46,522 nucleotides of DNA from Cytophagales bacterium (GTDB taxonomy: Bacteria; Bacteroidota; Bacteroidia; Cytophagales; CCMP332): contig JANQSY010000044.1 of NCBI GenBank assembly GCA_028279065.1, positions 1 to 46,522 of the forward strand, given 5' to 3'. The translations under genes were made by a program, and so were the position numbers. Positions 2,164-22,878 of this stretch are shown piece by piece (position 1 is the first letter of the stretch; every line of letters begins with the position of its first letter). The notes beneath the pieces were generated by a model. The model had not been told where the DNA came from. It searched no databases and saw only the letters and a list, made by a program, of their open reading frames with translations.

Positions 2164-5100
2164 CTAATCCTCCTTAATAAATGGAAATACCCTGCGAATA
2201 TTCTTCCCTTCAAGCAATATTAGGTACCCACCTGAGGGGAGATTTGAAATTTGGAGGTATTCATTAAGAGTTTCTCTCTGGTAGGCTGCTTTTTCCTCTC
2301 CCTTTTGAGAAATCACCTTGAGGCTCTCAAAGTGCAATTCCAAAAGTTGAGAAATATTTATTTCTTCTCTTGCCGGGTTTGGGAAAAGATTTGGAGAATT
2401 CCTTTCATAGGTCTTTCCAAGAAAATCAATTACAAATGGAATGCAGGAACTTGTGTCGGCACATCCACTCCTTTGAACCACAACAGAATAGACCCCTGTG
2501 TTTGGCGGGGCAAAGAACCTGGAATTCTCACCGGGTATGACTGAAAAACCAGTTGAACAATCCAGCCATTGGTAATTAGCGTTTTCCTGAAAGCACAGTA
2601 AACCAGAATCCAATACTAATATGGAAGTATCAATTTGGATTTTCCTTAATTCCAATTGAACCAGGCTGTCACAACCATCGGAGCTCAAGAATGTTTGAGA
2701 GTAGTTGCCCGAATCTGTAAGTGCCAAACTGCCAAACTGATAGAGCTCACCCTGGCAAAAAGAATCGCTGATATTTTGAATTTTTGATAGGTTAACAACT
2801 AACTGCATCTCAATAATGCTATCGCAACCATATTGATCTTGAAAACTTGCTCTGTACAATCCGGAAGAAAAAAGTGTGGTATCCAAGATGCCCCAATAAA
2901 AGCTATCACATGTTGTCTGGTTCATGAGGTTTACGGAGCTGAAGTGGAGGGTCAGATCCAGTTGCATTATGCTATCACATCCATTGGAGGACATCATAAC
3001 AGTTGAATAGGTGCCTGAGGAATAAAATGTAGAATCCAGTATCGGCCAATAGAAACTATCACAGTTTATTTGGTTTTGAATCGTGAGACTGCTTGAAAAA
3101 ATGTCAAGGTCGATCTCTAGAACGCTATCACAACCATTGCTGCCTTGCAAGGTGTCGAAATAGATTCCTGAATTTACCCAGGTGTTCATGCCGCTGGGTG
3201 AAACCAAGCTGTCGCAGGCCGAAATACTTTGATTGATCTTTTGGCTGTATTCAATTTGAAGGTCCAATGAGATAATCGAATCGCATCCCCTATTGTTGAT
3301 CAGGAGACCTTCATAAACGCCGGAGCTTCCATAGTACTGGTTAGTGACGGACCAGAAGAAGCTATCGCAGGCCGAGACTACCTGGTCCGAACTATCCCTT
3401 CCAATGCTCAATTCCAAATAGATCGTTGAATCACATCCATTGGAATTGATGAGTGATCCGGTATAAGCCCCGGATTGGAAATAGGTTTGGTTTGTTACAG
3501 ACCAATAGAAAGTATCGCAGACCGAGACCGTATCAAACGCGAGGTTATTGCCGAGGGTAAGATCAAGGTAGAGGGAGGAGTCACAACCATTTTGGTTAGT
3601 CAGGATTGCGGTGCTTAGTCCGGAATTGAAATAGGTTTGACCAGAAGCATCCCAATAAAAACTGTCGCAGGCCAGCACATTTATATAGATTGAATCTTCA
3701 GAGTTTACCGTAAGATTGAGGATCAATGTAGAATCGCAACCATTTTCGTCCAAAAAGGAGGCCAGATACACACCGCTCGAATCGTATTCAGAATTTGTAG
3801 AAGACCAGTAATAAGGACCGCAGCTGGTTGTTGAATCCGAATAAGATTGGGCCTGGTGGATGGTCAGGTCCAGTTCTAATACTGAATCGCATCCCTGGGC
3901 ATTTGTAAGTGTATCATAATAGAATCCTGAAGAAAGGTAATGCCGGTTGGTTTGATTCCAAAAGAAGCTATCACAGGAAGTGATTGGAGTGGAAAGGAAA
4001 TCATTGGCTATGGTCAGGTCTATCTGGATCATACTATCGCAGTTGGCCTTGTTCGTGAAAGTTTCAAAATAGGTGCCGGTTGAATAATAAACCTGGCCTG
4101 AGCCGCTTATGAACGAATCACAGCTTGAAACAATTTGCGCTGGGCCGGAATTATTGCAATCCTCAAATTTCAATAAGGCATCCGATAGCCAGCTATTTCG
4201 AACCCCAAGGGTGTCAAAATCAAATTTTAATGTATAGGTCCTGGATTGAATATCATATTCGAATAGGGTACCAGAAATGGTACCAGGCCCATCCTCTGTC
4301 GTTGTCCCGTATAATTTTAAAGGCGTTCCTTCATTCAGGGTAGATTGGGGGAGAATTCCTCCATTGTTAAATGTGAAAAGGTGCAGTACACTTAAGCTGT
4401 CATTTGTAAGATCAAAATCAAATAGAACACCCTGGCTCCCACTTCCTCCATTCCAGGTTGTTCCATATAGCTTTCCGTTTGAAGCTTTAAATAAACTTGC
4501 ATAGGGATGTGCACCATCAGAAATGGAAAAATGGTGGCTGACTGAAACCTGGTTGGTTTGTGGGTCAAATTCAAAAATGGCTCCAACTCCAGAAAATCCG
4601 CCTGATACATCCAGACCATATAGTTTTCCATTTCCACCGTCTATCATTCGCCCAAAGGGGCTTGACAGAGTCCAGGGGAATTGAAGAACAGCAAAGAAGC
4701 TGTCGATAGTCGGGTTATAGGCGAAGATCTCCCCACCCCCATGGTTTGCTGAAAGGGTGGTTGTTCCATAGATCAAGCCATTTGAATGCTCTACCAGGCC
4801 ACCGTAGGGTTCTGAAGAATCGACAAACCAATCGAATTCATGAAGTTTTTTGAATGTTCTTGACTCCGGCTCAAATTCGAAAACCACGCCTTCATTTGCT
4901 GAACCGCCAAGTTCTGTGGTTCCGTAGATCTTTCCATTGCTTGCTTTCAGGAGTCTTCCGGTAGGATTTTCTCCATTCACTGGACCATCGAAATGGTACA
5001 ATACCCTTACAATATCATGGTTGAAATCATAGGAATAAATTGTTCCCTTATTGAAGATTCCGCCATCTAGAGTGGTTCCAAGCAAAATGTTATCTGAATA

Positions 5101-6483
5101 TTTAATCACACTTCCTATGGGGCTTCTGGCTATAGACCTTTCATAGAAATCAAATTGCTTTTCCGCAGTCCCATTATCTAGATCGAAACTGTAAATGGTG
5201 CCGTTATCATCATTTCCCCCAAATACTGTGGTACTCCAAAGCTCATTGGAACTTGATTCTACGAAATAACCGCTTGGACCAAAAAGGGATGAATCTCCGG
5301 TAAAGTTGAAAATCGGGAAAATGGCGGTGTTACCTGGATCAAATGAATAGATTACCCCATTCACCGGGCCAGCTTTACGGGTGTTGCAGCCGTACCATAT
5401 CGTGTCCCCGACAGAAAATAATTCCCCACTCGGACTGTATCCGGTGACCACGGAATCAAAGGAGGATACAAGAGAAATATCGCGGATTACCGGGTCATAC
5501 TTAAAGATCCCGCCCAGACCATTTGCCCCCCCTGTTTTAACCGTTCCATAGAATTTTCCATTTGGTGGATAATAGAATATTTTTCCGCTTGGGGATCCTC
5601 CCATGAAAGTGCCATTAAAGAAAACGGAATCGAGATAACTTGTGTTGAAATCGTAACTGCAAAGGGAGCCAAATCCATCTTTTCCTCCTCTAGCATTCAA
5701 AAACCATAATTTTCCGTTTCTCTCCAATAATCCTCCTGAGGGCAAGCCTCCATAACTACTTACACCCCATGACTTAACCAATGAAAGAGAATTGGACTGG
5801 TAATTGTAAACAGCTAAAGAACCTCCCCCGAAGCTACCCCCGCTTTGGGTCAGAATATAAAGGGCTCCACTTGCTGCTTTGAAAAAGACCCCGACAGGTT
5901 TTTTGATGTTAGTAGCAAAATCCTTCCTTTTTGAAATGGAGTCCTTGGCAATATCATAATCGAAAACCGTTCCCCCTCCAGTTGTTCCGCCATATTTTGT
6001 TGTACCCAAAAGGACTCCGGGAGAAACCTCGATCAGTCCGTTTGGATCGCTTCCCAATGCAGCGTCGCCAAATTCATATAGGATGGTAAATTTTTTGGTT
6101 GAAGCATCGTATTCGAACAATATCCACTTCTCGGTATAGCTGGACGGCCCAATTTGATAAAGTGCCCCTCCAGGACAGGTGCCGTAAAATTTTCCATTTG
6201 AAGCAAGACAAAGCTTATTGGAAGGATTATGTCCATAATCTTCGGGAAATCTTGCCACAATAGCAGGGTCCTCACCGATACTGTCTGTTTTATATAGAAC
6301 GCCGCCATTTGCAGGGCCACCGTTTAGTGCGGTACCGAAAAATTCAAATCCCTGCGACCAACCAGAATTAAAAAGGAAAAAAGCAGGAAAGAGGCATAAT
6401 AGGTTCCTAATCAAAAACCTGAAAAATATCTTCTTCCAATACTTGGAAGGAATAATGAATGAGCCAAAGGGAACGGATTTCAT
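2164..6483 (-). CDS. Giant T9SS-secreted protein with GloVer and Cys-rich GCDS tandem repeats
   Basis: Predicted cell-surface or secreted protein of 1439 residues. A hydrophobic signal segment lies at about residues 20-44, ending in SGWSQ. Residues ~45-775 hold about 14 copies of the GloVer-type repeat (pattern like LYGTTxxGGxxxxGxIFxFDP, ~50 residues each), which should fold as a beta-propeller or solenoid. Residues ~780-1280 hold ten copies of a ~50-residue repeat with two cysteines each (CDSFxW ... SGxY ... NGCDSxxxLxLTI). A short Ig/PKD-like stretch with further cysteines follows. The last ~75 residues (SPNLFPNPAREEI ... SGGYLILLEG) form a type A T9SS C-terminal sorting domain. Function is unknown; adhesion or surface-layer roles are guesses. 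It is a single-gene unit with its own likely promoter. Confidence 0.88.
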   Translation of the reverse strand: MKSVPFGSFIIPSKYWKKIFFRFLIRNLLCLFPAFFLFNSGWSQGFEFFGTALNGGPANGGVLYKTDSIGEDPAIVARFPEDYGHNPSNKLCLASNGKFYGTCPGGALYQIGPSSYTEKWILFEYDASTKKFTILYEFGDAALGSDPNGLIEVSPGVLLGTTKYGGTTGGGTVFDYDIAKDSISKRKDFATNIKKPVGVFFKAASGALYILTQSGGSFGGGSLAVYNYQSNSLSLVKSWGVSSYGGLPSGGLLERNGKLWFLNARGGKDGFGSLCSYDFNTSYLDSVFFNGTFMGGSPSGKIFYYPPNGKFYGTVKTGGANGLGGIFKYDPVIRDISLVSSFDSVVTGYSPSGELFSVGDTIWYGCNTRKAGPVNGVIYSFDPGNTAIFPIFNFTGDSSLFGPSGYFVESSSNELWSTTVFGGNDDNGTIYSFDLDNGTAEKQFDFYERSIARSPIGSVIKYSDNILLGTTLDGGIFNKGTIYSYDFNHDIVRVLYHFDGPVNGENPTGRLLKASNGKIYGTTELGGSANEGVVFEFEPESRTFKKLHEFDWFVDSSEPYGGLVEHSNGLIYGTTTLSANHGGGEIFAYNPTIDSFFAVLQFPWTLSSPFGRMIDGGNGKLYGLDVSGGFSGVGAIFEFDPQTNQVSVSHHFSISDGAHPYASLFKASNGKLYGTTWNGGSGSQGVLFDFDLTNDSLSVLHLFTFNNGGILPQSTLNEGTPLKLYGTTTEDGPGTISGTLFEYDIQSRTYTLKFDFDTLGVRNSWLSDALLKFEDCNNSGPAQIVSSCDSFISGSGQVYYSTGTYFETFTNKANCDSMIQIDLTIANDFLSTPITSCDSFFWNQTNRHYLSSGFYYDTLTNAQGCDSVLELDLTIHQAQSYSDSTTSCGPYYWSSTNSEYDSSGVYLASFLDENGCDSTLILNLTVNSEDSIYINVLACDSFYWDASGQTYFNSGLSTAILTNQNGCDSSLYLDLTLGNNLAFDTVSVCDTFYWSVTNQTYFQSGAYTGSLINSNGCDSTIYLELSIGRDSSDQVVSACDSFFWSVTNQYYGSSGVYEGLLINNRGCDSIISLDLQIEYSQKINQSISACDSLVSPSGMNTWVNSGIYFDTLQGSNGCDSVLEIDLDIFSSSLTIQNQINCDSFYWPILDSTFYSSGTYSTVMMSSNGCDSIMQLDLTLHFSSVNLMNQTTCDSFYWGILDTTLFSSGLYRASFQDQYGCDSIIEMQLVVNLSKIQNISDSFCQGELYQFGSLALTDSGNYSQTFLSSDGCDSLVQLELRKIQIDTSILVLDSGLLCFQENANYQWLDCSTGFSVIPGENSRFFAPPNTGVYSVVVQRSGCADTSSCIPFVIDFLGKTYERNSPNLFPNPAREEINISQLLELHFESLKVISQKGEEKAAYQRETLNEYLQISNLPSGGYLILLEGKNIRRVFPFIKED

Positions 6484-6651: not shown

Positions 6652-7791
6652 ATGAATGTCTGGATCAAACGTATAGTCATTCCCCTGTTGATGATCTTCG
6701 TCTTCTTTGCCGGCCTGGCCCTGTTGGCGAGGATGCGCTATGGGGGAGGGGAGTATTATCCCGATCTCAGCACTGAGCCGTTAAAGCATCCCAGAGACCT
6801 GGAGATAGCGTTTCAATATGATGAACCCCTGGGGAATGTGGCTGTATCAAAGGATAACAGGATCTTTTTTACGGTACACCCTGAGTCCAGGCCAGAGAAC
6901 CACAAGGTATTGGAGGTAAAAGATGGTGAGGCTGTTCCCTATCCGAATCAAAAATTCCAGGATACCCATTTTGGTGAGGTCCTGGGGATAGTGATCGATC
7001 CCATGAATCGCCTTTGGGTTATAGATCATGGATTTCATGGCTTTGACGAAGTAAAGGTCAGCGCCTTTGATCTGGAAACCGATGAAATGGTCTATGAGCA
7101 TGTTTTTTCACAGCGTATAGCGGAGAAGGGGTCGTATTTCAATGATCTCCAGGTAACCAATGACGGAAGGTATGTCTTCATTGCCGATGTCAGTTTTTTT
7201 GGAAAGAATCCAGCATTGGTGATCCTGGATACAAAAACTGGACGTTCAACAAGACTGCTTGAAGGAGATCCTTCTGTCACTCCTCAGGACTGGATCATTA
7301 GAAATCCTGAAAAGGATATGAAGTTCGTCGGGGGGCTGATCGCTTTGAAACCTGGGATAGATGGGATCGCGCTGGACCCAAAAGGCGAGTGGTTGTATTA
7401 TGGAGCCATGGCCCATGACGGGCTATTCAAGGTCCAGGTTCATGCCTGTATAAATGGCCTGGATGGAGAGACCGAGCCCAAGGTCCATTACATAGGAAAA
7501 AAGCCTCTTAGCGATGGATTGAGTGTCGATACGGCAGGAAGGATCTACATCACCGATGTTGAGCATAGGGGCATAGCAGTAATGGAACCGGATGGAAAAC
7601 TCTGGACCCTTGTCAAGGATGATAGGATCATTTGGGCAGATGGCTTAAGTTTTGGAGGCGATGGATGGCTTTACATGACCGACTCAGAAATCCCGAACCA
7701 GATGTTACGCTCAAGGGATCATATGGAGTTCCACGCTCCCTACCAGATCTTCAGGACCAAGCCGGAGCATTCCGGAATGGCTGGGAGGTAA
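6652..7791 (+). CDS. Major royal jelly protein (MRJP/yellow)-like beta-propeller protein
   Basis: 379 residues with one N-terminal membrane anchor (about residues 7-27, IVIPLLMIFVFFAGLALLA), so the propeller should sit in the periplasm, anchored to the inner membrane or exported. The body has NHL/SGL-like strands with motifs seen in the MRJP family: NRLWVIDHG, YVFIADVS, GIDGIALDPKGEWLYYGAM, LSDGLSVDTAGRIYITD and ADGLSFGGDGWLYMTDS. Insect relatives include yellow and royal jelly proteins; bacterial members are mostly uncharacterised, so a substrate cannot be given. It is a lone gene divergent from the T9SS cargo gene. The ATG follows an AT-rich gap that contains TATTTTG, one base short of the usual -7 consensus. 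Confidence 0.75.
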   Translation: MNVWIKRIVIPLLMIFVFFAGLALLARMRYGGGEYYPDLSTEPLKHPRDLEIAFQYDEPLGNVAVSKDNRIFFTVHPESRPENHKVLEVKDGEAVPYPNQKFQDTHFGEVLGIVIDPMNRLWVIDHGFHGFDEVKVSAFDLETDEMVYEHVFSQRIAEKGSYFNDLQVTNDGRYVFIADVSFFGKNPALVILDTKTGRSTRLLEGDPSVTPQDWIIRNPEKDMKFVGGLIALKPGIDGIALDPKGEWLYYGAMAHDGLFKVQVHACINGLDGETEPKVHYIGKKPLSDGLSVDTAGRIYITDVEHRGIAVMEPDGKLWTLVKDDRIIWADGLSFGGDGWLYMTDSEIPNQMLRSRDHMEFHAPYQIFRTKPEHSGMAGR

Positions 7792-16305: not shown

Positions 16306-17310
16306 CTATTGTTTTGGCAATGCTTTTTTATCCACATTAAGATCAAGCATTTCCTTGCATACCCAATCGATCGAATCCTCTACCGAAATAAACGAAAAAC
16401 CCAATTGATTCTTGATCTTACCGGAAGAAAATTCGTGCGAAGAAAATGAATTATTTATCATTTCTCTTGTCAAAAGAGGGTCTTTTCCTATCAAAAAGGT
16501 CAAGGCATTTTCCGGCCACTTCGCCAGCCACGCGAGGGTCTTTCCAATTTTGAATCTGGGAGCGCTTCGGTTCAGACATTTTGCAACCCTTCCAAAGAAT
16601 TTATCATATGAAAAATGTGCTGCGCTCAAGATATACCTTTCTGCATGTATCCTTTTCTCGATCATTATAAGTGCCGCCTTTGAAACATCCCTTACATCCA
16701 CAAGGTTCAGGAACCCACCGGAGTAAAATTTTTTCCCTTTCCACACATATCCGATGATCCGGGCGCTGGATCTATCCCATCCAGCAGGGCCCAATACAAC
16801 GGAGGGATTTAAGATCGCTCCCCTAAGACCCTCAGAGAATCCCCTCCAAACCTCCTTTTCACTTTGATATTTGGACCTTGAGTAGTGTGAGGTCAGCTTA
16901 TTGTCTTCCCAGGGGCTTTCCTCGGTCATCAAGCTCGAATTCAATGACCTTCCTACAGCTGCTACCGAGCTGATATGTAGAAAGTATTCTATCCCCTTTT
17001 CCAATGCAAGGTCGACCAGGATTTCCGTTCCCGTCATGTTGGTCTCATACATGGCCTCTCTTTCGGATTTCTTAAACGACACAATGGCTCCGGCATGGAC
17101 AACGAGCTCTTTCCCTTCCACCACTTTTTCCATCTGAAGAGGATCCAGAAGATCAGCTTCCTGCCAGTCTATGTCCAGCTCCTTAAGCAGGGAGGGGATT
17201 ACACTCGATCCCCTTTTTATTGCTGTAACATTGTAGCCATTCTCCACAAGATCTTTTGCTAACCAGGACCCAACCAGGCCTGTTGCTCCTGTGATCAATG
17301 CTGATCTCAT
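16306..17310 (-). CDS. NAD-dependent epimerase/dehydratase (extended SDR)
   Basis: 334-residue Rossmann enzyme. It has the cofactor motif GATGLVGS (residues ~8-15), the acidic region DWQEADLLD, a catalytic Ser region (LHISSVAAVG) and YxxxK (YSRSKYQSEK), plus NPSVVLGP, typical of nucleotide-sugar epimerases and dihydroflavonol-reductase-like enzymes. The exact substrate is unclear. The ATG overlaps the stop of the phosphatase gene by four bases (ATGA), tying it to exopolysaccharide synthesis and suggesting a sugar-nucleotide role. NAD(P) preference cannot be read with confidence. Confidence 0.85.
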   Translation of the reverse strand: MRSALITGATGLVGSWLAKDLVENGYNVTAIKRGSSVIPSLLKELDIDWQEADLLDPLQMEKVVEGKELVVHAGAIVSFKKSEREAMYETNMTGTEILVDLALEKGIEYFLHISSVAAVGRSLNSSLMTEESPWEDNKLTSHYSRSKYQSEKEVWRGFSEGLRGAILNPSVVLGPAGWDRSSARIIGYVWKGKKFYSGGFLNLVDVRDVSKAALIMIEKRIHAERYILSAAHFSYDKFFGRVAKCLNRSAPRFKIGKTLAWLAKWPENALTFLIGKDPLLTREMINNSFSSHEFSSGKIKNQLGFSFISVEDSIDWVCKEMLDLNVDKKALPKQ

Positions 17311-18044
17311 TTCAAAGAAGGATTTAGGAAGCTTGCCTCTGACAATAAATCCAGCGTTTTCTTTGGCAGCGGCGAACTCAGAAGCTCAGCTTGCAAAGGT
17401 TTATGGCAATCAGAGCCAATAAAGGAGTAGCTTCCGGCTTTAAGGAATTTGATGGCTACATCCCTCACCCTCTCGGAGTAATAACCCAGCAGAGATAAAT
17501 AATTCAATTGGAACACCAGGCCTTTTTTCAGAAACTCACCTGCCATATCAGGTCTGGCCTGAAGATAGGCATACCTCTCAGGGTGAGCGAAGATCGGTGT
17601 TATCTGGCGACTCTTTAAAAGGAATATGACTTCATCAAAGATCATTGGAGGCTCATGAAAGGCTGTTTCCAATAGGAGGTAGTTTTTGCCAAAAGTCAAA
17701 AGCTCCTGATCCTCCTTCAGATTATTCAAGAATACCTCATCAACATAATATTCAGCAGCCACCGAGAATTTAATATTCAGATCATTCTTCTGATAAAAAT
17801 TCACTACCTGCTCAAATCCATTTTTTATGATTTGGGGATCATTATTGTAAACACCTGGGTAAATGTGAGGAGTAGTAATGATATGCTCAAAACCTAGGTC
17901 ACTAAATTTTTTTGCGATCTCAAGAGATTCTTCCATGGAGGTGACCCCGTCATCAATTCCAGGGATGAGGTGTGAATGAAAATCTGTTTTCAGGGTTTTT
18001 AGAAAAGCCAGGGGGGAAGCTTTTTTCTTTATTAAACCGAACAT
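17307..18044 (-). CDS. CpsB/YwqE-type PHP protein-tyrosine phosphatase
   Basis: 245-residue metal-dependent phosphatase of the PHP superfamily. It carries the metal motif FHSHLIPGIDDG (H23, H25), ITTPHIYPG, HPERYAYLQ and IGSDCHKP near the C-terminus. Family members (CpsB, Wzb-like YwqE) dephosphorylate the tyrosine-rich tail of the bacterial tyrosine kinase that controls polysaccharide chain length. The kinase gene lies directly upstream with a gap of three bases, and the SDR gene overlaps its end. Location is cytoplasmic. Confidence 0.92.
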   Translation of the reverse strand: MFGLIKKKASPLAFLKTLKTDFHSHLIPGIDDGVTSMEESLEIAKKFSDLGFEHIITTPHIYPGVYNNDPQIIKNGFEQVVNFYQKNDLNIKFSVAAEYYVDEVFLNNLKEDQELLTFGKNYLLLETAFHEPPMIFDEVIFLLKSRQITPIFAHPERYAYLQARPDMAGEFLKKGLVFQLNYLSLLGYYSERVRDVAIKFLKAGSYSFIGSDCHKPLQAELLSSPLPKKTLDLLSEASFLNPSLK

Positions 18045-18047
18045 CCT

Positions 18048-20426
18048 TTAGCTAAAAAACCCCAGGAAACCCTTACTCTCCTTCTCTTCATAGTACCCTG
18101 ACCCATAACCATATCCATAGCCATATTTAGCGCCTTTTCGTGGAAGCTGGCCATTGAATATTATTGAGAGATTGCGGATCTGATTCTGTTGTGTCAAGGT
18201 CTCCAGGACCTTGTGGAAGCCTTTTCGCGTAAACTGAGCCCTGACCACATACATGGGAATATGGGCCCTTTTCATCAATAGTACCCCATCGGTAACCAAT
18301 CCAACGGGAGGAGAGTCCATTATGATAACGTCAAATTCCTTCGCAAGGTCATCCAGAAGTTGATCGAAGGATTTCAATAGGATAAGTTCCGACGGATTAG
18401 GAGGGATTGGCCCTGAAGGAATATAGAACAGATTTTCAAGTTCAGTGGTCTTCAGGCAATCCTGAAAGGTATTCTTCCCGATCAGGATATTGCTCATTCC
18501 AAGTTCGTTTTTACCGTCAAATACCAAGTGGACCTTCGGTTTTCTCATGTCCAGATCCAGAATGATTACTTTCTTATTGGACATAGAAATAATACCTCCA
18601 AGGTTTGCAGCAACAAAGGTTTTACCTTCACCTGAAACAGTCGAAGAAATGGATATCAATTTGTTTTCCCCATTTGGAGAAATGAACTCCATGTTGGTTC
18701 TGATCGTCCTAAAAGCCTCAGATATCCCAGATTTTGGATTTTCATGAACTATGAGCTTTGAATGCCCCCCTTCCATTTTCTTTTTGACAGGAACAGAACC
18801 AATAATAGGTGTACTGGTGATGTTCTCTATCTCCTCAATGGTATCGAAGGTATTATGAGTTAGGAACCTCAGAAACACAAAGATCAGGCTTAGTGCAAAG
18901 GCTCCACCAAAACCGGCAAGGTAGGCATTGATCGCATTTGGAGAAATCGGCTGAGATGGAAGGTTCGCGCCCGAGAGGATCTGGAATTCCGGAACTGTTC
19001 CAGCCTCTGAGATCCCATACTCCGCTTTTTTGTCCATCAGAAGGAGGTAGAATTTTTCGTTCAGGTCATAATACCTTTTCAATCTGTTGTATTCGGTTCT
19101 CCTTTCAGGCAGGCTTGCCAGCTGGGCCTCCAATGCCCGCGACTTTTCGTTCAGTTTTTTCAGTTTGTCCAGCTGTTGATCTTTTTCTTCAAGGACTATG
19201 GTTGAGATCGCCGATTGAGCATTTTCATACTTTTCTTTTTTCAGTTGATAAACCAGCGTGGTATTTTTTGAAGAATAACGGACCCTGTTAAAATCCTGGG
19301 CAGCATCATAAAGATCATTTGAAGCTTTTCTGAGACCTTCTGAAGGGAAGATCCCAACGTCCACATATACCCCTAGAGTATCGATGTCATTCATTTTTGA
19401 TTCGAAACTCTGGATCCATTTGATCTCCATTCTTGTAGCCTCGATCTCGGCATTGAGTTGCTCGATCTCGATGTTTGTCTGGTCAACCTCCTCAAGGATA
19501 TTTATTGTCCGGTGGCTCCGGATGAAGTCCTCCATTTCCTTTTCAGAATTGGCCAACAGGCTGTCGGTCCGTTGGAGTTGCTGATTTAAGAAATTGATGG
19601 TTTGCGAAGAGGCCTTGTTCTTTTGGGCCAGGGTCTCGCTAAGGTATACACCATTAATGGTCCTGACGATCTCCTTTGCCTTGGAACGATTGGGATCTAC
19701 AAAAGAGATTCGGATTGTGTTTGCATTGGGATTCAGGATCTCCACATTCAGATTTTCTCTCAGATATTTCAAAAGGGCATTCCTGCTATTCAATATGAAA
19801 TAATAGCCCTCAGAGTTGAACTCCTCCTGGTTTACATCTTTAATGTTGATCCTGAAATCGGCATTTTCCCCATGGATCAATTCTCCAAACCTGAACCTGT
19901 TCTCACCAGAGGATCTCCCCTCAAGCTCAAGTTCAAATGTGGTTTTATCGATAATAGTGATATAAATAGGCACATCATAGGGAGGGTTTTTTAGGTTTGA
20001 AACCTCCACTCTGAATGGTGAAGCCCTGAATTTTTCCTCGTCCTTTATCTTACCCTTGGCGTAATAAGAAATATGAAGATCATCCAGGGAATCGATTACC
20101 AGATTGTGGATCAGATCTGACTTGATCAACTCCACTTCTCCACTAAGAACATTAGAGCTGGTCCCCTGGCCTGAAACCTTATCCAGACCCAAAACCCCCG
20201 AATCGCTTTTGATATCAAGCTTGAGAATTGAAAAGGATTCATAAAGGGGCACAGTATACCTGAGAAAAACCCATGCTCCTCCAATTCCAAGTGAAAGGAA
20301 AACCAAAATGAACAGCCAACTTTTTAGGAGAATCTGCCAGAATTTGGGAAAATCCAAGTCACCTACCAGGCCTTTGTTCGGCAATCCTGATTGGAGCAAT
20401 TGGCGTTCTGATTTCCCGGATTCCAT
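18048..20426 (-). CDS. Wzc-like polysaccharide co-polymerase and tyrosine autokinase
   Basis: 792-residue inner-membrane protein. A Wzz-type chain-length domain has membrane helices at ~35-57 and ~495-520, with a long periplasmic coiled-coil region between them (~270-440). The cytoplasmic BY-kinase domain has Walker A (SGEGKTF, near 600), Walker A' (VIILDLDMRKP) and Walker B (DVIIMDSPP). The C-terminal tail, KYGYGYGYGSGYYEE, holds six tyrosines, the expected autophosphorylation cluster. Kinase and co-polymerase are fused, as in proteobacterial Wzc. The gene lies one base after the Wza-type gene and just before its probable phosphatase. Confidence 0.95.
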   Translation of the reverse strand: MESGKSERQLLQSGLPNKGLVGDLDFPKFWQILLKSWLFILVFLSLGIGGAWVFLRYTVPLYESFSILKLDIKSDSGVLGLDKVSGQGTSSNVLSGEVELIKSDLIHNLVIDSLDDLHISYYAKGKIKDEEKFRASPFRVEVSNLKNPPYDVPIYITIIDKTTFELELEGRSSGENRFRFGELIHGENADFRINIKDVNQEEFNSEGYYFILNSRNALLKYLRENLNVEILNPNANTIRISFVDPNRSKAKEIVRTINGVYLSETLAQKNKASSQTINFLNQQLQRTDSLLANSEKEMEDFIRSHRTINILEEVDQTNIEIEQLNAEIEATRMEIKWIQSFESKMNDIDTLGVYVDVGIFPSEGLRKASNDLYDAAQDFNRVRYSSKNTTLVYQLKKEKYENAQSAISTIVLEEKDQQLDKLKKLNEKSRALEAQLASLPERRTEYNRLKRYYDLNEKFYLLLMDKKAEYGISEAGTVPEFQILSGANLPSQPISPNAINAYLAGFGGAFALSLIFVFLRFLTHNTFDTIEEIENITSTPIIGSVPVKKKMEGGHSKLIVHENPKSGISEAFRTIRTNMEFISPNGENKLISISSTVSGEGKTFVAANLGGIISMSNKKVIILDLDMRKPKVHLVFDGKNELGMSNILIGKNTFQDCLKTTELENLFYIPSGPIPPNPSELILLKSFDQLLDDLAKEFDVIIMDSPPVGLVTDGVLLMKRAHIPMYVVRAQFTRKGFHKVLETLTQQNQIRNLSIIFNGQLPRKGAKYGYGYGYGSGYYEEKESKGFLGFFS

Positions 20427-20427
20427 T

Positions 20428-21222
20428 TTACTGGTTTATGCTTGCAATTAATAAAGCAATTGCTAATAAGCTGGTTGCAAAAGTCAATAGCGGAGTAACA
20501 TCCCTAATGGCTTCATTTGCAACCCTTCTCACAGGTTCTACATATATGATATCCTCAGACCGAACCTGCATGGTGGCGGTTTGGTAACCCTGAATGGTCG
20601 TAAGATCAATAACCTCGACATATGGATTAGAATGATCGCCCCTGATCAGCCTGACTTTCTCTGCTTTGGTATCATCATTCATTCCCCCTGCTCTGGCTAT
20701 GGCCTCGATAATCGTCATATCCTCGTTATCAAGAGGGACTACCGTTGCCACCTGCCCAAGGAAAACAAAGACCCTTCGGTTGACAACAGTGGTTTTTACA
20801 AAAGGCTTTTCATAAAACTTTTCATACTCTTTAACAAGGGCAGAGTCCAGTTCTCTAACGGTAAGCCCTTCCACTTTCACGAATCCAACCATCGGGAAGT
20901 TCACCCTGCCGTCCTTTTGGACAAGGTAGAAAAGATCTTGTTGCTGTTGTGCCCCCTGATTTCCTACTCCACCCGCCATCTCTATTCTCATCTGTCTATT
21001 GGGATCAATCAGGGCTTCGCCTCCATTTGTTTCAACGATGAGGTCGATCTTGTCATTGACCTTCATCCTGTAATTCTTTTCAGCTTGCTTAAGCTGTTCC
21101 GCGATCTTTGGATCATTTTCAAAGTCTTTGACCCTGAACATGACATTAGACTTGTAGGTCTTGCATCCGGTGATGAGACCAAAAATGAATAGTGTCAGGT
21201 ATATTCTTTGGACTGGATTCAT
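20428..21222 (-). CDS. Wza-like polysaccharide export lipoprotein
   Basis: 264-residue outer-membrane export protein. A lipoprotein signal ends in LFIFGLITGC (Cys at residue 20). A Poly_export domain (residues ~50-140: YRMKVNDKIDLIV ... DGRVNFPMVGFVKVEGLTVREL) is followed by an SLBB-type domain (RRVFVFLGQVATVVPLDNEDMTIIEAIARAGG). The C-terminus ends with a hydrophobic helix, LLTFATSLLAIALLIASI, common in Bacteroidota versions and perhaps the pore helix. The ATG overlaps the rfbC stop by one base (TGATG). Confidence 0.93.
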   Translation of the reverse strand: MNPVQRIYLTLFIFGLITGCKTYKSNVMFRVKDFENDPKIAEQLKQAEKNYRMKVNDKIDLIVETNGGEALIDPNRQMRIEMAGGVGNQGAQQQQDLFYLVQKDGRVNFPMVGFVKVEGLTVRELDSALVKEYEKFYEKPFVKTTVVNRRVFVFLGQVATVVPLDNEDMTIIEAIARAGGMNDDTKAEKVRLIRGDHSNPYVEVIDLTTIQGYQTATMQVRSEDIIYVEPVRRVANEAIRDVTPLLTFATSLLAIALLIASINQ

Positions 21223-21761
21223 CAGAATTGACTGTTAAATTCTGAAAACTTCGGCAAAATTGAATCCTTTTCAGATACAATGGGGTTTTCTATGCCCCAA
21301 TCTATGTTGAGGTCGGGGTCATTCCATATGATGCCGGATTCCGATTCTTTGTTATAAAAATTTGTGCATTTATAGGTGAGGTTTGTCTCTTCATAAGTGA
21401 CAAACCCATGGGCAAACCCGGGGGGTATATAGACCATATTCCCCCTTTCGCCTTCAAGAATAAATCTCTCATGCTGACCGTAAGTAGGTGAGCCCTTCCT
21501 AATATCCACAGCAATATCCAATGCTTTGCCCCTGATCACAAAAACAAGTTTTCCCTGTTTATGGGGTGGATTCTGAAAATGTAAGCCTCTCAAAACCTCT
21601 TTTTTTGAATAGCTATGGTTGTCCTGGACGAAATCCAGATCCAAACCTGCCTTTTTGAAACGTTCTGTATTCCATGCTTCAAAAAATCTTCCCCTCTCAT
21701 CGGGGAATACCCTAGGGTGGATCTCGATCAACCCTTCAATTCCGGTTTCAATTATCTCCAT
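21222..21761 (-). CDS. rfbC: dTDP-4-dehydrorhamnose 3,5-epimerase
   Basis: Cupin enzyme that epimerises C3 and C5 of dTDP-4-keto-6-deoxyglucose on the way to dTDP-L-rhamnose. Length 179, usual for the family. Motifs: IHPRVFPDERGRFFE, QDNHSYSKKEVLRGLHFQ (catalytic His 61), ALDIAVDIRKGSPTYGQ, IPPGFAHGF and YKCTNFYN. The other rhamnose genes (rfbA, rfbB, rfbD) are not in this window, so the enzyme depends on distant genes or makes another dTDP sugar. It lies seven bases after the glycosyltransferase gene and overlaps the export gene. Confidence 0.95.
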   Translation of the reverse strand: MEIIETGIEGLIEIHPRVFPDERGRFFEAWNTERFKKAGLDLDFVQDNHSYSKKEVLRGLHFQNPPHKQGKLVFVIRGKALDIAVDIRKGSPTYGQHERFILEGERGNMVYIPPGFAHGFVTYEETNLTYKCTNFYNKESESGIIWNDPDLNIDWGIENPIVSEKDSILPKFSEFNSQF

Positions 21762-21768
21762 TTGGAAC

Positions 21769-22878
21769 TTAGCAGATGGCCTTTATTGCCTCCTTGTACT
21801 TTTTGATAACTATTTCCTTTGAAAAATTCCTGCCCACAATTTCTCTTGACCTATGGCCCATGGCCTCCAATTCACTTCGATCCAGGCTCAATAGCTTTTT
21901 CATCTTCTCAGCCAGGCTCCCTGCGTCCATGGGACTGCAAAGGAAACCATTTGAGCCATCTTTTACCACCTCTCTACAACCTGGAACATCACAGCTGATC
22001 AGGGGCTTGGCCATAGCCCCTCCCTCCAATAGGCTTTTGGGCAGCCCCTCCCTGTAGCTGGGAAGCACTACACAATCCGAGCTAGCAATTAATTCCCTGA
22101 CCTCCTTTGAAAATTCCATTAGGACGATCCCGGAATCCTTGGCCATTTTTTCAAGTTCATCTTTATCAGGACCAAGTTTGGAATCATTCTCGATCTTTCC
22201 ACAAAGGATGGCATCAAAACCCAGTCCTTGCTCTCTCATTTTTTTTACCGCCTCCATGTATTCCCTTATTCCCTTGTCATATATAATTCGGGATAGCATA
22301 AGGAAGGTAAACCCCTCATTATGAACCTTTTCTACAACTTGTGGATCAAAATATGCAAGATCGATACCAGATCCGGGGACCAGGTCTATGTTTTCGGTAT
22401 TTACCAGTCCCAATTCCTGGAATAACTCCAAATCATCAACATTCTGGAAAAAGACCCTTTTTGACCTTTTTAGGGATACTCTGTACAGTTTTTTGGCAAA
22501 AAAGGAGGTTAGATTATTCCTGATAAAGGTTGTGCCCAGCCCTGATATGTTCGCGATGATGGGAACCTGATGCCTTGAAAAGAAAAGACTTGAATAAATG
22601 TTGGGTTTTATGGTATAGCTCAACAATACATCCGCTTTAATGGAAATAAGGATGGAGCTAAGGTCCATTGCGAATTTGAGATCTTTGAAGGGATTGCTGC
22701 TTTTGGCGCTTAGTTCGATTGGATGAAAATGACAGCCCAAATCTTTTAGATCCTTCTCAAATCCATCTGGCGGGGCTATGCAATGAACCTCATCCCCATT
22801 GGAAAGGAACTCCAGGATCAGGTCTTTCCGGAAATTATAGATGTTCCAGGCAGTATTGATGCAAAATGCGATCTTCAA
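21769..22878 (-). CDS. GT4 family glycosyltransferase
   Basis: 369-residue GT-B enzyme that moves a sugar from a nucleotide donor to a lipid-linked glycan. N-terminal half: AFCINTAWNIYNFRKDLI, LLSYTIKPNIYSS, ISGLGTTF. C-terminal GT4 half: LVPGSGIDLAYFDP, FLMLSRIIYDKGIREY, and the donor site SYREGLPKSLLEGGAMAKPLI with its EGxxxxxxEGxAxxxP pattern. It resembles enzymes that add a sugar early in capsule or O-antigen synthesis; the donor is unknown. The start is TTG 22878, set by the family N-terminus; no ATG is in frame nearby. It is the first gene of the minus-strand exopolysaccharide run, and its promoter must lie in the 63-base divergent gap. Confidence 0.92.
   Translation of the reverse strand: MKIAFCINTAWNIYNFRKDLILEFLSNGDEVHCIAPPDGFEKDLKDLGCHFHPIELSAKSSNPFKDLKFAMDLSSILISIKADVLLSYTIKPNIYSSLFFSRHQVPIIANISGLGTTFIRNNLTSFFAKKLYRVSLKRSKRVFFQNVDDLELFQELGLVNTENIDLVPGSGIDLAYFDPQVVEKVHNEGFTFLMLSRIIYDKGIREYMEAVKKMREQGLGFDAILCGKIENDSKLGPDKDELEKMAKDSGIVLMEFSKEVRELIASSDCVVLPSYREGLPKSLLEGGAMAKPLISCDVPGCREVVKDGSNGFLCSPMDAGSLAEKMKKLLSLDRSELEAMGHRSREIVGRNFSKEIVIKKYKEAIKAIC

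Follow-up and report, generated by a model that had tools for sequence, protein, structure and literature searches.

A GloVer-headed T9SS cargo protein whose ten two-cysteine repeats may be joined by disulfides between neighbouring domains

In RTX adhesins, the linkers between extender domains are stiffened by calcium (PMC7493085), and in a giant adhesin of Mobiluncus the reported cross-links lie inside each domain (PMC10619420). T9SS cargo often consists of many small domains in a long row, without family models, and a cysteine-bonding rule would account for the extended shape of such proteins under shear. Here, we analyzed one such protein encoded in a 46,522-nucleotide stretch of DNA (hereafter the window) from a Cytophagales bacterium (assembly GCA_028279065.1, contig JANQSY010000044.1). 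Judged from sequence, it probably carries two GloVer propellers on a ten-domain stalk with one inter-unit disulfide per domain boundary, and would be exported by T9SS as a surface or secreted protein. The observations behind this reading are the architecture, the array sizes, the co-loss of cysteines and the strand couplings.

The preliminary description of this locus had proposed a single 1439-residue protein, and the gene is real and lies on the minus strand; the plus strand across the same interval is full of stops (Table 1). The repeat counts also held: about 14 GloVer repeats had been noted, and 14 units were found over residues 37-759, both with a profile built from the protein's own units and with an iterated one, while the GCDS units number exactly ten (Cys 788/815 in the first to 1243/1271 in the last, with a period of 49-51 residues). 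All ten GCDS units score i-E≤7e-20 against a profile built from themselves, which is circular, and we regard them as far beyond chance because this profile also finds the same unit type in many other genomes. The proposed sorting domain is recognized by PF18962 (E=7.2e-7, 29.9 bits against a cut-off of 27, residues 1366-1428), and a second model, TIGR04183, scores 22.0 bits, just below its cut-off of 23. The signal region is probably cleaved near GWSQ. Two further features were added in this study. A four-cysteine Ig-like stretch ('YQWLDC...GCADTSSC') separates the GCDS array from the tail, and a lone cysteine, Cys776, precedes the first array cysteine.

Table 1. Coordinates of the gene and of the features of its product in the window
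Feature	Coordinates	Strand	Residues	Remarks
Whole gene P0001	2164..6483	(-)	1439 aa	ATG start
N-terminal signal region	6352..6483	(-)	1-44	Read from sequence
GloVer units 1-7	5287..6375	(-)	37-399	Predicted first seven-bladed propeller
GloVer units 8-14	4207..5286	(-)	400-759	Predicted second seven-bladed propeller
Docking cysteine	4156..4158	(-)	Cys776	12 residues ahead of the first array cysteine; proposed partner Cys815
Ten two-cysteine GCDS units	2620..4137	(-)	783-1288	
Ig-like tail domain	2404..2610	(-)	1292-1360	Cys 1297, 1309, 1341, 1347
T9SS type A sorting domain	2173..2388	(-)	1366-1437	PF18962 above cut-off, TIGR04183 just below

The head matches the GloVer model TIGR03803 in 11 stretches (E=1.7e-81, 267.8 bits against a cut-off of 44). 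Of 295 genomes sampled from the class, 57 have GloVer proteins, and the units were counted in 23 proteins with the iterated profile: 15 have 14 units, five have seven, and the rest have 12, 6 and 6. Thus 20 of the 23, the present protein with its 14 among them, have a multiple of seven units, and such quanta fit one or two seven-bladed propellers. Together with a match of the head profile to designed Kelch propellers in the PDB, these array sizes support the propeller reading offered earlier, and the 7+7 split is inferred from them. The head would then consist of two seven-bladed beta-propellers and is proposed to be the binding part of the protein; our guess is that it binds polysaccharide or another cell. 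Among the 23 counted proteins, only this one and two others (L069 and L077) have a GCDS array of at least two units. A literature search for GloVer or GCDS repeats found no papers.

No Pfam or NCBIfam model covers the GCDS unit. Using the profile from this protein, the unit was found in 154 of the 295 sampled genomes of the class and, with a stricter E limit, in 14 of 396 genomes of a phylum-wide sample, in arrays of 1 to 36 units. The 74 head regions preceding such arrays include 19 with SBBP propeller repeats, 11 with LamG, seven with FG-GAP and three with LRR domains. The combination of GloVer head and GCDS array recurs in two other genomes, in L069 (14+3 units, with the same tail domain as here) and L077 (7+2 units), while L080, in the same genome, joins 14 FG-GAP repeats to nine GCDS units and L078, in the same genus, joins SBBP repeats to ten. 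Seen beside these layouts, the present architecture is a single example of a modular scheme in common use, and the propeller, GCDS and T9SS combination is itself common. The architecture had been thought undescribed; this holds for the GCDS repeat, as a unit without a family model, but not for the arrangement. The earlier idea of a modular stalk agrees with arrays of such different size standing between varied heads and an anchor. Two sets of matches were discounted as reflecting composition or the head: the LRR matches of one head and, in the PDB, antibody light chains matched by the GCDS profile (E 0.001-0.5). A contig scan found one locus, matched in its tail region only, and scans of viral contigs turned up GCDS units at only three loci. 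Two or three units each occur in L098, L161 and L162, IMG/VR contigs labelled viral. In addition, a 635 kb 'uncultured phage' record (LR745206.1) contains a locus (L240, 3639-7259, plus strand) with about nine GCDS units followed by an apparent gliding/T9SS type B C-terminal domain; either the phage carries a T9SS-type protein or the record includes DNA of a host.

The preliminary description had predicted that the two cysteines of each unit (C1 and C2) bond with each other, which would make the array a flexible string of ten independent knots. Ig-like domains often have internal disulfides, which counts for such a scheme. Each unit has two nearly invariant cysteines, and a Mobiluncus adhesin domain with an internal disulfide has been described (PMC10619420). 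However, cysteine losses among 857 GCDS units from 144 reading frames follow another pattern. Within the same unit, both cysteines are present in 821 cases, C2 is missing in 8 and C1 in 17; 25 units lack one cysteine, yet none lacks both. Between neighbours, the pair C1(i) and C2(i+1) is complete in 673 cases, C2 alone is missing in none, C1 alone in three and both in one (p=0.006, an internal signal that rests on a single protein, L219, which has lost C1 of unit 3 together with C2 of unit 4). This p value and those below assume independent arrays, which is not fully the case; even so, the losses are spread over about a dozen genomes in several families. Related proteins, such as four of one family, account for some of the terminal losses.

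The decisive evidence comes from the ends of the arrays, where losses track cysteines outside the unit. Of 149 arrays with a cysteine no more than 90 residues downstream, 146 retain C1 of the last unit, whereas all ten arrays without such a cysteine lack it (p=1.3e-13). C2 of the first unit is missing from 5 of 13 arrays lacking a cysteine within 110 residues upstream, compared with 2 of 140 arrays that have one (p=3.8e-5); eight first units retain C2 despite having no such upstream cysteine. As a control, C1 of the first unit has no link to an upstream cysteine (p=1). Losses in first units concern C2 in seven cases and C1 in three, and those in last units C1 in 13 cases and C2 in one (p=0.002). 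The upstream docking cysteine stands at a fixed distance that differs with the kind of domain ahead of the array: it precedes C1 by 12 residues behind a propeller, by 71-72 behind a LamG head and by about 23 behind an Ig-like domain. Ten LamG heads (such as those of L082, L083, L089, L106, L107 and L126) have a cysteine exactly 71-72 residues ahead of the first array cysteine, and L119, apparently with another LamG-like head, has none at this position. In the tail domains, the WLDC cysteine and the last cysteine co-occur or go missing together; in L123, C1 of the last unit and the GC cysteine of the tail are both missing, while the WLDC and last tail cysteines are retained. The Ig-like tail of the present protein has one extra cysteine, 1297. 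Bonding within units would also leave the docking and tail cysteines unpaired.

A mean-field coupling analysis of 806 unique GCDS units addressed the geometry. Around C2 it revealed an F/G hairpin, and the C1 strand runs parallel to the C2 strand at an offset of 11-13 residues (mean 1.26 SD versus a shuffled maximum of -0.34); when adjacent units were analyzed jointly, this pairing fell inside one unit rather than across to the next, and no direct couplings were seen between the neighbourhoods of C1(i) and C2(i+1). Position C1-9 is coupled with C2-4 at 6.7 SD, and both coupling signals vanish when C1 segments are shuffled among units. The parallel offset places C1 beside C2+12, and therefore at the opposite end of the domain from C2, where the unit borders on the one that follows; the coupling of C1-9 with C2-4 places C2 of that following unit at this same boundary. 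The two cysteines of one unit would thus lie far apart, so that bonding within units is unlikely, and the losses and couplings together favour bonds between neighbouring modules. An AF2 model of two units from eight sequences is confident and all beta (pLDDT 84.4, pTM 0.50), with strands that agree with the couplings; a three-unit model from four sequences reached a pLDDT of only 40 and was discarded. As in an Ig-like beta-sandwich, the unit is all-beta, contains an F/G hairpin and has its first strand parallel to its last, according to AF2 and the couplings. Its match to solved Ig-like domains is weak (best E 4.6e-3, TM 0.37), as are all PDB fold matches (Rib and other Ig-like tandems as well as the GhpA neck; best TM 0.26-0.38). 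A better match (TM 0.68) is to a predicted protein of a marine phage. RemZ (8GL8), of which only the C-terminal domain is resolved in the structure, was a weak PDB match and was not retained.

Pairing of C2(i) with C1(i+1), which would close a hairpin with a fixed 22-residue loop, served as an intermediate hypothesis. The spacing between these two cysteines is 23 in 410 of 447 cases, and AF2 places two strands there, three residues apart. Nevertheless, antiparallel couplings between these strands are absent (all sums ≤0.31 SD), the C2(i) by C1(i+1) table reads 657/13/7/0, and C1 of the first unit is retained where the docking cysteine is missing. On the co-loss tables and couplings, this highly improbable pairing was dropped in favour of bonds from C1 of one unit to C2 of the next.

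With these neighbour bonds, Cys776 after the head would bond C2 of unit 1 (776-815), and C1 of each unit would bond C2 of the following one, probably stiffening the ten small, Ig-like beta domains of the stalk at each of their boundaries. We infer the staples 788-865, 837-916, 888-967, 939-1017, 989-1067, 1039-1118, 1090-1169, 1141-1220 and 1192-1271, with C1 of unit 10 joined to the GC cysteine of the Ig-like tail (1243-1341). Inside the tail, a bond 1309-1347 would leave 1297 over. The result would be a rod-shaped, surface-displayed protein with a covalent ladder from head to anchor, in which load is carried past the linkers.

Export and anchoring would most likely proceed through the type A sorting domain. 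The genome encodes SprA (TIGR04189, 2348 bits) and 141 sorting-domain matches, and therefore T9SS is present, in line with the earlier assignment of the protein as T9SS cargo. Gliding and secretion in Flavobacterium make use of disulfides that join envelope proteins (PMC12635249), by which oxidation in the Bacteroidota periplasm is established. A search of the whole genome gave no match to Thioredoxin_4 (DsbA-like) or VKOR, although cysteine pairs abound in many of its exported proteins. The lack of DsbA-like and VKOR matches, as well as extra unpaired cysteines in some proteins (1297 here included), could suggest that the cysteines bind metal or cross-link separate molecules instead of forming staples. 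Co-loss at specific positions of one chain is the pattern of intramolecular partners, however, and we give this explanation very little credence.

Several neighbouring genes were also recorded. Downstream on the same strand (2-2088, minus), a GspE/PilB-type ATPase with the Walker A motif GPTGSGKST is cut by the window edge and is accompanied by a weak A24 prepilin peptidase match and a pilin-like protein (N_methyl, ComP_DUS); as a set, these genes are of the type II secretion or type IV pilus-like kind, in a genome of Bacteroidota. The divergent neighbour (6652-7791, plus) matches Major royal jelly protein/SGL, which is a propeller family too. Capsular or exopolysaccharide genes are located at 16306-22878 (minus), including AAA_31/GNVR (tyrosine kinase type), CpsB, Poly_export, an epimerase and a glycosyltransferase.

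Beyond this protein, it is likely that Bacteroidota rods share an unnamed, interchangeable covalent coupling standard, used in about half of the sampled class genomes, in which Ig-like modules are disulfide-joined at each boundary, unrelated heads (propeller, LamG, Ig-like) carry a docking cysteine and the anchor domain carries a receiving one. Such a bonding rule would define a widespread domain family absent from databases and predict docking positions on unrelated heads.

Compared with known systems, most GloVer repeat proteins end in other C-terminal domains, unlike this one. The SprB repeat (PF13573) and Ig_7 (PF19081) of Bacteroidota T9SS cargo have an ending similar to that of the GCDS unit ('G-Y...NGC'), and arrays behind Ig-like domains have a cysteine 22-25 residues upstream of C1; however, neither family is among those matched by 55 two-unit GCDS segments. 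In the PDB, sequence similarity to the GCDS units is significant for grappling hook protein A (GhpA) of Aureispira alone (9FLP and others), with a whole-sequence E of 1.3e-7 over 25 weak stretches, none significant singly and all over the GxY...NGCxS (F/G) motif. The GhpA neck is also a fold match to the GCDS model, but GhpA is 5898 aa long and its matches are about 80-85 residues apart versus 50 in GCDS. Rib domain tandems (PDB 8YKE, 6S5Y) are the top fold matches (probability 0.72-0.99, TM only 0.29-0.37) and, unlike this protein, belong to surface proteins of Gram-positive bacteria. The Mobiluncus adhesin shares tandem Ig-like domains with covalent cross-links, which there lie within domains. 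Finally, RTX adhesin extender domains share tandem beta-sandwich stalks stiffened at every linker, but they use calcium without disulfides and are not T9SS proteins; in the protein described here, disulfides would do the job that calcium does at those linkers.
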